Origin: an archaeon
GTDB taxonomy: Archaea > Nanobdellota > Nanobdellia > Pacearchaeales > GW2011-AR1
Length of the DNA: 64,000 nucleotides
Direction of reading: 5' to 3'
Assembly (NCBI GenBank): GCA_027343665.1
Contig: DAHWKL010000001.1
Location: 190,773-254,772 of the forward strand
The notes under the pieces were generated by a model that saw only the letters and a list, made by a program, of their open reading frames with translations, was not told the DNA's origin and made no database searches. Every line of letters starts with the position of its first letter. Positions within the stretch are counted from its first letter, which is position 1. Below, piece after piece: positions 26,210 through 29,820 of the stretch. Made by a program: the position numbers and the translations under genes.

Positions 26210-26560
26210 ATGACAGACCAAAAAGCAAGAATAACAATATCACGATACGGGAAGATGGGGGATACGAAAGAGCCCTGGGGGTACGAAGCAGTTTTCTCCA
26301 TGGATGAAATCGGAGACAAATACAAAAACCTCAGATTCAAGAATTCCGTTGAATACTTCGACAAGCACTGGAAACTTTCAGAAGAGACTTATAATAAAGA
26401 AAATGCAATGTTCGGGATTGAGAAAAAAAGAAATGTAAGAAAAGCTGACAACAGAGCTTATGAAAATGCAAAAACAAACCTTGTTCATAGGATATTGAAC
26501 TCAAATATTCCAAAAGAAATGAATGTTAATATCATAAATATGACCGGAAGAAGAAAATGA
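26210..26560 (+). CDS. hypothetical protein
   Basis: ORF; overlaps the next ORF by 4 nt (ATGA), suggesting coupling. Confidence 0.6.
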   Translation: MTDQKARITISRYGKMGDTKEPWGYEAVFSMDEIGDKYKNLRFKNSVEYFDKHWKLSEETYNKENAMFGIEKKRNVRKADNRAYENAKTNLVHRILNSNIPKEMNVNIINMTGRRK

Positions 26561-27006
26561 CAAAGAACATTGAAGTCAAATTTTGGAAAGATGAAAGTGG
26601 GAAACCTGTCCTTAATCTCATTCCTCTTTGGGAAGGAGTTGTCAGACCGCAAACACAAGATGAATACGATCAGCTTATGAAAATCTATGAATCGGGCGGA
26701 GTCAAATGGATAATGACAAGAAAAAAGCCAACAGAAATAAATTTATGGCCAAAGCTAAAAGGTGACACCTGTATTACAGCTAACTTTCCATCAGAAGACA
26801 AAGATTTCACATACGGCAGAAAAAGATTTTTCGAAGGTGAAAACAAAAAAATCCTTTCAGTCAATGAATACATAATATTCCAGAAAATTCTTCCAGATAA
26901 GATCAAGAGCATAAATAGATGGTTTGAAAAAAATGCCCCTTACAGGGAAAGCTCAGGTCATTTAGATCTTCAGACTTATGACCTTACTGATTCCGTCCTG
27001 CATTGA
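26557..27006 (+). CDS. hypothetical protein
   Basis: ORF coupled to the upstream gene; overlaps the smc-like 3' end antiparallel by 45 nt. Confidence 0.6.
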   Translation: MTKNIEVKFWKDESGKPVLNLIPLWEGVVRPQTQDEYDQLMKIYESGGVKWIMTRKKPTEINLWPKLKGDTCITANFPSEDKDFTYGRKRFFEGENKKILSVNEYIIFQKILPDKIKSINRWFEKNAPYRESSGHLDLQTYDLTDSVLH

Positions 27007-29820
27007 AACCCCATAAAGGTTCGTCGCACCGGTGATTATTTCATCATTATGGGTTATCACAATATACTGACCCTTGCCCATATATTTTTTCAACAATCCG
27101 GCAAGACGCTCTGAATTTCTCTTGTCCAAAGCTGCGTCGATTTCATCAAGGATATAGAATTGATATGGCTTGAGCTCTTGTATTGCAAAGATCAGTGAAA
27201 GAGCAACCATTGTCTGTTCCCCTCCAGAAAGCGATTTGACATCAAAGTATTTTCCATGACCTGTTTTGACAATTATGTCAACTCCGCCCAGAAAAGGCTC
27301 TTTTTTATTTTCAAGCTCGAGAAAAACCTGACCTTTAGTCGATATTTGCGCGAAATTTCTGGTAAAGATACTATTAAGCTCTTCCAAGGTCGAAAGGAAA
27401 GCTTTCTTCTTTTTTACATCTATTTCGTGGATTATTTTCATGACACCTTCCTTCTCTTTCTCAATAGATTCGGCTTTTTCTTTCACAGTCTCATACTCTT
27501 TCTTGAATTCATCATAAACTTCAAGTGCTCTCATGTTCACTGTTCCAAGTCTGATAAGCATCTCTTCGGTTTTCCTTAACCTCTCTGATAGAACTTCAAT
27601 GCCCGTTTTTATTATTTCTGACTCGGGATATTCAAGTATCTCGGTTTCAAGATTTTCAACTTCAGCATCTTTTTTTGCCTTTTCTATCTTGAGATTGTTT
27701 ACTATCTGCTCGGCATTGTAAACTAAATTCCTTTTTTCAACAAGTTCCATCTCATTTTCACGTATTTTCTGCTGTACTGAATCGCGTTCTTCAATGTATT
27801 TTTTGGCCTTCTTTATCAGTTCTTCCTCTTCTCTTCTTTTTACATCAAGAGATTTGCTTTTTTCAGATAAAGATCCCTCAATAATTTTAAGTTCCTCGTC
27901 AAGCTCTTCTTTCTCACGCGAAAGCTGCTTCAAAGAAAGAAGAGCACGATCAAGCTCCCTTTGCTTAAATGAAATTTCAGAAGAAAGATTCTCTTTATTT
28001 CTTAAAGATATCTCTTCTATCTCAAGCCTCAAAGTTTCATATTTTTCCTCAACATTTGAATTTTCATCAAAACTATCCTCAAGTTTTTTCCTTGATTTGA
28101 CGGCTTCACTTACTTCACTCTTTACCCTTTCTTCTTTCTCAGATAAATTTTTTATCTGCGCATTCTTGTCATTTATGAGCCTTATTTTCACAAGATCATC
28201 CTGCCTTTTCCTTATCTCTGTGTTTGCCGATTCTATTTCTTTTTTAAGAGCTTCTGAGGAAGATTTTATCTCAATAGATTCTTTCTTCAATACTGAAATC
28301 TCATCTTCAAGTGATCTTATAAGCGGTTCAGCCTCGCTTCTTATAGAATTCATATGCTCCTGCGTGATTTTGCTTTTGCAAAGAGGGCAAATATCCAGTT
28401 TCCCTATCTTTTCTATTATCTTCTTATTTTCTTCTATCTTGGAATTGTCAACAGATATTACTTTCTCTATTTCTCTCTCCCTTTTAACGAAGTTTTCCAG
28501 TGAACGATTCTTTTCAGAGAGTAATTTTTTAAGTTCTTCAACCTTGGATTCATCTGTTTTTTTGTCAAAAAGTTCTGACGAAAGTCTATCAAGTTCATGC
28601 ATCGCAAATTGAGATTCGCTTAAATAATTCTGAAGAAGACTTTTTTTATCCTCAATCTTTTCGGCAAGAGATTTAAGTTCACTTTTCTCCATATATCTTT
28701 TTTTTCTTTGCTCTTCCAGTTTTTCAAGTTCCGTTTTTTTCACTATGAGCTCTTTTTGGATTTTTTCAATAGTCGGGGATTCGTTTTTCAGGCTGTTTAT
28801 GGAGACCTCATTTTCTTCCATTGAAGTCTGAAGAGAAAGTTTTTTCCTTTCAATATCCTTAAGCTTTTTCTCGTGATTTTCTTTTTTTACGGCCAGACCC
28901 GCAAGATCAGCTCTCAGGTTTGAGATTTCACGATTTAATTTTTCCTGCTCCAAACCCGTCTGATCTTGGATCCTTGAATTAATCTGAGATACTTTCGCTT
29001 CCAATTCTTCAATTTCCCCTTCAGTTGAAAGAATTATTTTTTTTATCTTATCAACTTCCTTTAGCTTTGAGTCTATCCCTTTTGAGATTTCCTCTTCTTC
29101 TTTTTTCTTCCTTGAAAGATCAATGAATATTATGCTTTTCTTGAACTTTCTCAGGTCTTCTTCAAGCTTCTGGTGCTTTAATGCAATTTCCCTTTCTTTT
29201 TCTATATTTTCAAGGTAAGCGCTCCTCTCTTTTAATACAGCATTAACTTCCTTAAGTTTCTCTTCTGTCTTTTCAAGTTCACGCATTGATTTTTCTTTTC
29301 TGGATTCATATATTGATATTCCTGCTACCTCCTCGATAATCGATCTTCTCTCATCAGACTGCATCCTCACAAAATTCTGGATTTCACCCTGCAGGACAAT
29401 ATTGAATCCGTTTGGATCAATCCCTGCCTGAGCAAGGAGAGATAAAACTTCCTGACGGGTTTTTGTCTCACCGTTTATCTTGTAAATACTCTGACCATTT
29501 TTTCTCACGATTCTTTTTATTGAAATTTCTTTTTCGTTGATGTCAAAAGTCTTGTCCTCATTGTCAAAAAAAATCTCAACCTGGGCCTCTTTTGCAGGTG
29601 CGGCAACTTTTGTCCCCAAGAATATGAGATTTCCCGCTTTTGTTGCTCTCATAGACTTGGCGCTGAGTCTTCCCAGTACAAAACAGATGGCATCTGAAAT
29701 GTTAGATTTTCCCGAACCATTTGGTCCCAAGACCACATTTATTCCTGATGTAAATGGGAGTTCGGTCTTTCTTGCAAAACTCTTGAACCCAGACATCACC
29801 AGTTTTTTAACGTAAGACAT
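26962..29820 (-). CDS. SMC-family ATPase with central Rad50-like zinc-hook motif
   Basis: SMC heads: KLVMSGFKSFARKTELPFTSGINVVLGPNGSGKSNISDAICFVLG and KSLSGGEQTMVALSLIFAIQELKPYQFYILDEIDAALD; coiled coils; CPLC near residue 478 of 952. Confidence 0.93.
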   Translation of the reverse strand: MSYVKKLVMSGFKSFARKTELPFTSGINVVLGPNGSGKSNISDAICFVLGRLSAKSMRATKAGNLIFLGTKVAAPAKEAQVEIFFDNEDKTFDINEKEISIKRIVRKNGQSIYKINGETKTRQEVLSLLAQAGIDPNGFNIVLQGEIQNFVRMQSDERRSIIEEVAGISIYESRKEKSMRELEKTEEKLKEVNAVLKERSAYLENIEKEREIALKHQKLEEDLRKFKKSIIFIDLSRKKKEEEEISKGIDSKLKEVDKIKKIILSTEGEIEELEAKVSQINSRIQDQTGLEQEKLNREISNLRADLAGLAVKKENHEKKLKDIERKKLSLQTSMEENEVSINSLKNESPTIEKIQKELIVKKTELEKLEEQRKKRYMEKSELKSLAEKIEDKKSLLQNYLSESQFAMHELDRLSSELFDKKTDESKVEELKKLLSEKNRSLENFVKREREIEKVISVDNSKIEENKKIIEKIGKLDICPLCKSKITQEHMNSIRSEAEPLIRSLEDEISVLKKESIEIKSSSEALKKEIESANTEIRKRQDDLVKIRLINDKNAQIKNLSEKEERVKSEVSEAVKSRKKLEDSFDENSNVEEKYETLRLEIEEISLRNKENLSSEISFKQRELDRALLSLKQLSREKEELDEELKIIEGSLSEKSKSLDVKRREEEELIKKAKKYIEERDSVQQKIRENEMELVEKRNLVYNAEQIVNNLKIEKAKKDAEVENLETEILEYPESEIIKTGIEVLSERLRKTEEMLIRLGTVNMRALEVYDEFKKEYETVKEKAESIEKEKEGVMKIIHEIDVKKKKAFLSTLEELNSIFTRNFAQISTKGQVFLELENKKEPFLGGVDIIVKTGHGKYFDVKSLSGGEQTMVALSLIFAIQELKPYQFYILDEIDAALDKRNSERLAGLLKKYMGKGQYIVITHNDEIITGATNLYGVSMQDGISKVISLKI

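Follow-up and report, generated by a model that had tools for sequence, protein, structure and literature searches.

A Rad50-like hook segment in place of the hinge in an SMC protein of the archaeal order Pacearchaeales

We propose that the 952-amino-acid protein encoded by the smc gene of the window (the whole stretch of 64,000 nucleotides that was analysed) is likely the archaeal SMC orthologue of its lineage, that is, the ATPase of a Smc-ScpAB condensin with a Rad50-like zinc hook substituted for the globular hinge. The sequences directly show SMC-type heads, a lost hinge, conservation of both the hook and the arm lengths, and a genome that encodes ScpA, ScpB and, separately, Rad50 with Mre11. 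In the open-access literature searched, such a swap of hinge for hook in an SMC has previously been seen only as a laboratory construct. The genome belongs to what we take to be the GTDB order Pacearchaeales of the class Nanoarchaeia, which contains the kinship groups referred to below as families f1 to f8. The data are metagenome assemblies, and that of the window genome is not closed (812 kb, 10 contigs, 88% complete).

The smc reading frame has no internal stop (Table 1), and its product carries a full SMC-type split ABC head with Walker A, LSGGE signature and Walker B. The first-pass annotation had claimed canonical SMC heads and a central CPLC at about residue 478 of 952. The heads held, with the GPNGSGKS, LSGGEQ and Walker B/D-loop motifs all present, and so did the cysteine motif, which lies exactly at nucleotides 28378..28389 and in the exact centre of the protein; the strand, not given at that time, is the minus strand.

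Table 1. Coordinates of the smc gene and of the features of its product within the window.
Feature	Position	Strand	Evidence or remark
smc gene, 952-aa hook-type SMC protein	26962..29820	-	stop codon 26962-26964
N-terminal head half, aa 1-168 (ABC ATPase, SMC type)	29317..29820	-	Pfam; structure-sequence alignment
Walker A GPNGSGKS, aa 32-39	29704..29727	-	nearly all positions invariant in orthologues
N-terminal coiled-coil arm, aa 170-473	28402..29313	-	AlphaFold helices; Walker A-Cys spacing
Apex hairpin (putative zinc hook), aa 474-486, replacing the SMC hinge	28363..28401	-	Pfam, AlphaFold, Rad50-hook comparison
CPLC zinc-hook motif, aa 478-481	28378..28389	-	sequence; orthologue conservation
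C-terminal coiled-coil arm, aa 487-760	27541..28362	-	AlphaFold helices; Cys-SGGE spacing
C-terminal head half, aa 761-952	26965..27540	-	Pfam; structure-sequence alignment
ABC signature LSGGEQ, aa 864-869	27214..27231	-	sequence; orthologue alignment
Walker B and D-loop FYILDEIDAALD, aa 888-899	27124..27159	-	sequence; orthologue alignment

By its heads, the protein is a true archaeal SMC. Pfam SMC_N matches it with 164 bits, and in the NCBIfam ranking SMC_prok_A (520 bits) comes before ASRP and Rad50 (100 bits each). The score of 520 bits lies below the equivalog cut-off of 729, a shortfall that the absent hinge and the shorter arms would partly explain. Among solved structures, the closest by sequence is the Smc head of Pyrococcus yayanosii (5xei), to which residues 1-239 were aligned. 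In a tree of 79 head sequences, which contains no ASRP, the hook-type proteins of the order and the helical-tip proteins described below form one clade (support 100/99). This clade groups with the hinge-type SMCs of Woesearchaeota and relatives, themselves supported at 99/97, with a weaker joint node (89/49), and a branch of length 3.25, supported at 100/100, sets Rad50 apart. This placement indicates that the 952-amino-acid protein is an SMC with a changed tip and not a Rad50. Its genome encodes no other SMC; the other PF02463 matches read are Rad50 and an ABC transporter, and the remaining ones are short frames of 253-261 amino acids. Since the criterion of a globular hinge (PF06470) is unmet, we file the protein as a hinge-swapped variant and not as a canonical SMC.

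SMC_hinge (PF06470) was not found by Pfam in the 952-amino-acid protein even at E<=10, and the same scan gave 103-110 bits in relatives from other orders. A custom hinge HMM made from eight archaeal and bacterial SMCs, with which a hinge below threshold was sought, found none in the order. None of the 51 genomes of the order that were tested has SMC_hinge, and all four genomes from other orders of the class have it; a hinge was also found in each of the 18 additional class members read and in all 62 named SMCs of bacteria and archaea retrieved by similarity. The surveys outside the class took in only SMCs that resemble the 952-amino-acid protein. The earlier claim that no hinge is recognisable therefore holds by Pfam, by the custom HMM and by the AlphaFold model discussed below.

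In the class-wide scan, SMCs outside the order are mostly 1060-1190 amino acids long or enlarged by inteins. Short SMCs from outside the order were considered as extra hinge-less cases (L087, L164 and L165 with 920, 893 and 944 amino acids, respectively, and the bacterial L125) and rejected, as all of them have a hinge; L164 and L165 are the two short full-length class SMCs outside the order that were fetched. Hinge-type SMCs with shortened arms, of about 890-1015 amino acids, occur at four loci of Ruminococcaceae/Eubacteriales, including L125, and at the three Woesearchaeota-like loci just named. Since these shortened-arm SMCs keep the hinge, arm shortening and hinge loss are separate events.

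The 952-amino-acid protein is matched in 49 of 55 relatives. Each of the 75 hook-type loci read, 35 of them in relatives and 40 more in family f1, has CPxC at the apex, and so do 12 named records, some of which come from the same genomes. In orthologues down to 39% identity, the alignment columns of C478, P479 and C481 do not vary, although the region around them does. Because the apical CPxC is found in every hook-type orthologue read and its columns stay invariant within a variable region, it is not a chance occurrence. An assembly chimera was considered and rejected, the same architecture being present in dozens of independent assemblies. The distances along the arms are conserved as well: in family f1 the cysteine and SGGE are 387 residues apart in 48 of 61 loci and, with a single exception, 385-389 residues apart; the spacing between Walker A and the cysteine is 445-451 residues in 60 of 61 loci, the remaining locus being interrupted by an intein. 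Working SMC proteins are reported to have length-tuned arms (PMC5344682).

The Pfam profile Rad50_zn_hook (PF04423) matches residues 459-508 with 22.1 bits (E 1.3e-4), just short of its curated cut-off of 24.3 bits; at E<=0.1 it detects no more than 9 of 18 orthologues. In the AlphaFold model of the 952-amino-acid protein, a helix (424-473) is followed by a short strand-turn-strand within 474-486 and a further helix (487-585); the predicted apex has 13 residues and no globular domain. The model, for which 18 orthologues were used, has moderate confidence values (pLDDT 77 overall and about 68-74 in the hook, pTM 0.42) and includes neither a dimer nor zinc. A Foldseek search with the full model returned mostly SMC proteins, matched over heads and arms, and is uninformative on the tip.

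A comparison of 75-residue hook segments bears on the origin of the tip. The segments from SMCs of the order and from Rad50s of the class can be aligned over 73 columns with no gap (hhalign E 9e-20), with HMM scores between the two of 31-59 bits, and they have in common CPxC, a hydrophobic residue at +7, mostly T or S at +8 and H at +11. Rad50 hooks with C-P-C masked still score 10.5-32.5 bits, and control windows from the arms reach maxima of 6.5 bits (Rad50 arms) and 10.2 bits (SMC arms). These arm-window and masked-cysteine controls reject a coiled-coil bias as the cause of the match. The results support homology between the SMC hook segment and Rad50 hooks, with a signal that survives masking of the cysteines, and capture of a Rad50 hook is therefore the simplest origin; that the cell's own Rad50 was the donor is inferred. 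The tree of the hook segment (75 columns) is unresolved. By score, the hooks of families f2, f4 and f8 fit the Rad50 hook HMM better than the SMC hook HMM of f1, which gives no more than a weak hint that a second capture could have occurred.

Families f6 and f7 and part of f4 have SMCs of about 800 amino acids without a hinge and without CxxC; eight such loci, in eight genomes, were recorded. In the model of one of them, L047 (pLDDT 70, pTM 0.37), the tip is a helical hairpin formed by residues 360-404 and 408-444. Homology between the f4 and f6 tips extends over their entire length; in the tip comparison, no homology of the f7 tip to either was detectable. On the head tree, AU tests reject the hook-type proteins as one clade (p 0.003) and the helical-tip proteins as one clade (p 0.0005). 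As neither group is one clade, the tip was exchanged several times within the order, with the first tip type undetermined. A bolder reading, which could as well be wrong as right, is that the condensin of one archaeal order lost its hinge and took the hook from the Rad50 of the same cell, possibly more than once, and that some branches exchanged this tip again for a small, zinc-free helical one. If so, the order would provide a natural series of repeated swaps, and an SMC tip would need only to join two arms.

ScpA (296 amino acids, G000:C3:133500-134135) and ScpB (E 2.5e-37, G000:C4:54634-55071) are encoded in the same genome as the hook-type SMC, as is a separate Rad50 of 681 amino acids with CPTC, adjoining Mre11; there is no second SMC. 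Among the window neighbours examined, which comprise proteins without family, a TrmB-like regulator, RNase HII and others, neither scpA, scpB nor mre11 is adjacent to smc, as the first-pass annotation had stated. Neighbours of these kinds imply that there is no smc operon with the scp genes, and the location of all three elsewhere in the genome strengthens the condensin reading. A 149-amino-acid reading frame without Pfam match (26557..27006, plus strand) runs towards smc and shares 45 bases with the 3' end of that gene. Rad50-sized proteins of about 690 amino acids are also present in relatives, and no ASRP above the cut-off (NF045487, 300 bits) was found in 55 relatives. The Rad50s of the class are short (frames of 624-697 amino acids at eight loci, one of them on contig C4 of the window genome), with arms far shorter than those of the hook-type SMC. 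In family f13 (four genomes of about 600-700 kb, two of them in one contig), a query with the SMC N-terminal head found no SMC and PF02463 gives only weak matches, including a Rad50-sized frame of about 755 amino acids; conceivably, this family has no SMC at all.

In the mechanism that we propose, one zinc, coordinated by four cysteines of which each chain supplies two, would link a pair of SMC chains where their arms end away from the heads. The heads would come together on ATP, and the kleisin ScpA, together with ScpB, would complete the ring on the head side; in this way the complex would entrap and fold or extrude chromosomal DNA without a hinge. Zinc binding, the homodimer, the ring, DNA entrapment and loop extrusion are all inferred. 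The first-pass annotation had likewise inferred a zinc-dimerised condensin, and this is supported, its function in vivo remaining an inference as well. It had named a folded hinge, a non-conserved CxxC and heads nested within Rad50 as findings that would refute it; none was met, as there is no hinge, CxxC is conserved in orthologues and the heads fall within SMC. What speaks against our reading is the modest quality of the zinc-free, monomeric AlphaFold model, the weak and patchy match to PF04423, the distance of the scp genes from smc and the existence of the zinc-free sister families, which shows that the hook is not essential to the whole SMC clade.

Three other readings deserve consideration. 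The protein could be a Rad50 homologue with SMC-like heads that acts with Mre11 in break repair, as the hook motif and the matching hook segment would suggest. Yet both the head score and the head tree place it in SMC, the genome already has its 681-amino-acid Rad50 beside Mre11, relatives likewise have proteins of Rad50 size, and ScpA and ScpB are retained; we regard this reading as very unlikely. Equally improbable is membership of the archaea-specific SMC-related proteins (ASRP), which include coalescin ClsN and Sph. ASRPs do carry a zinc hook and ClsN organises chromosomes (PMC9389158), but the ASRP profile reaches only 100 bits versus its cut-off of 300, whereas SMC_prok_A reaches 520, and none of the 55 relatives holds a member above the cut-off, with the reservation that ASRPs are missing from the head tree. 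The comparison with ClsN that had been drawn earlier is thus an analogy only: ASRP/ClsN carry hooks but form a separate clade (PMC9389158).

A less remote, though still unlikely, possibility is that the protein is a true SMC in which CPxC, as a zinc or redox site, only stabilises the tip of a single chain, while arms and heads dimerise. The sister families with an SMC of about 800 amino acids lacking any CxxC are in favour of it. Against it, the segment matches Rad50 hooks well past the cysteines, including the histidine at +11, the two cysteines of a single chain are insufficient on their own for a full tetrahedral Cys4 site, and the apex is merely a 13-residue loop. An SMC dimerised through a zinc hook thus remains the reading that we prefer.

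The hook-type SMC shares with the SMC of archaeal and bacterial Smc-ScpAB the head motifs, the head phylogeny, long antiparallel arms, a single copy and the presence of ScpA and ScpB in the genome; whereas a canonical SMC has a hinge of about 115 amino acids and a length of about 1160, the protein described here has a 13-residue cysteine hairpin and 952 amino acids. Similar to Rad50/SbcC, it carries a CPxC hook with homologous flanks, zinc being inferred for the SMC, but it differs by its SMC heads, by the lack of an adjoining Mre11 and by the separate Rad50-Mre11 in the genome. With the ASRP family it shares being an archaeal SMC-superfamily ATPase with a zinc hook (PMC9389158), the hook in our case being predicted; that family is a separate clade in the literature, and its profile is far under cut-off for the 952-amino-acid protein. 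The closest parallels are engineered. B. subtilis Smc(Zh), with the hook of P. furiosus Rad50, supports normal growth on nutrient-rich medium (PMC5344682), and conversely Rad50 with the MukB hinge is functional in fission yeast (PMC6969161), so that the tips are interchangeable. These are laboratory chimeras, whereas the hook-type SMC occurs in nature and is conserved in most of an order. A marine actinobacterial cluster of hinge-less SMCs (PMC12153180) also combines SMC heads with the absence of a hinge; as it lacks CXXC, it is on this point nearer to the helical-tip SMCs of the sister families than to the hook-type SMC.

No description of a natural hook-bearing SMC in Pacearchaeota, DPANN or Nanoarchaeota was found in the open-access literature searched. 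A recent review splits coiled-coil ABC ATPases into SMC, with hinge and kleisin, and Rad50, with zinc hook and Mre11, and reports that many LmuB of Lamassu carry hooks (PMC10586767); a bona fide SMC with a hook, in a genome with ScpA and ScpB, cuts across this division. The result with Smc(Zh) pointed to a Smc function that does not depend on the fold of the dimerisation domain, an idea that a natural, order-wide case makes testable. The hook-type SMC also argues against models in which loading or extrusion requires DNA contacts specific to the hinge. Within the order, closely related heads carry two kinds of hinge-less tip, and the sister orders have hinge-type SMCs.

As a side observation, inteins of about 500 amino acids are inserted at Walker A (GPNGSGK/SN) of SMC at six loci, and frames of 1480-1690 amino acids also occur; one of these inteins, that of L040, has Intein_splicing and LAGLIDADG domains. 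They are found in hook-type and hinge-type genes alike.
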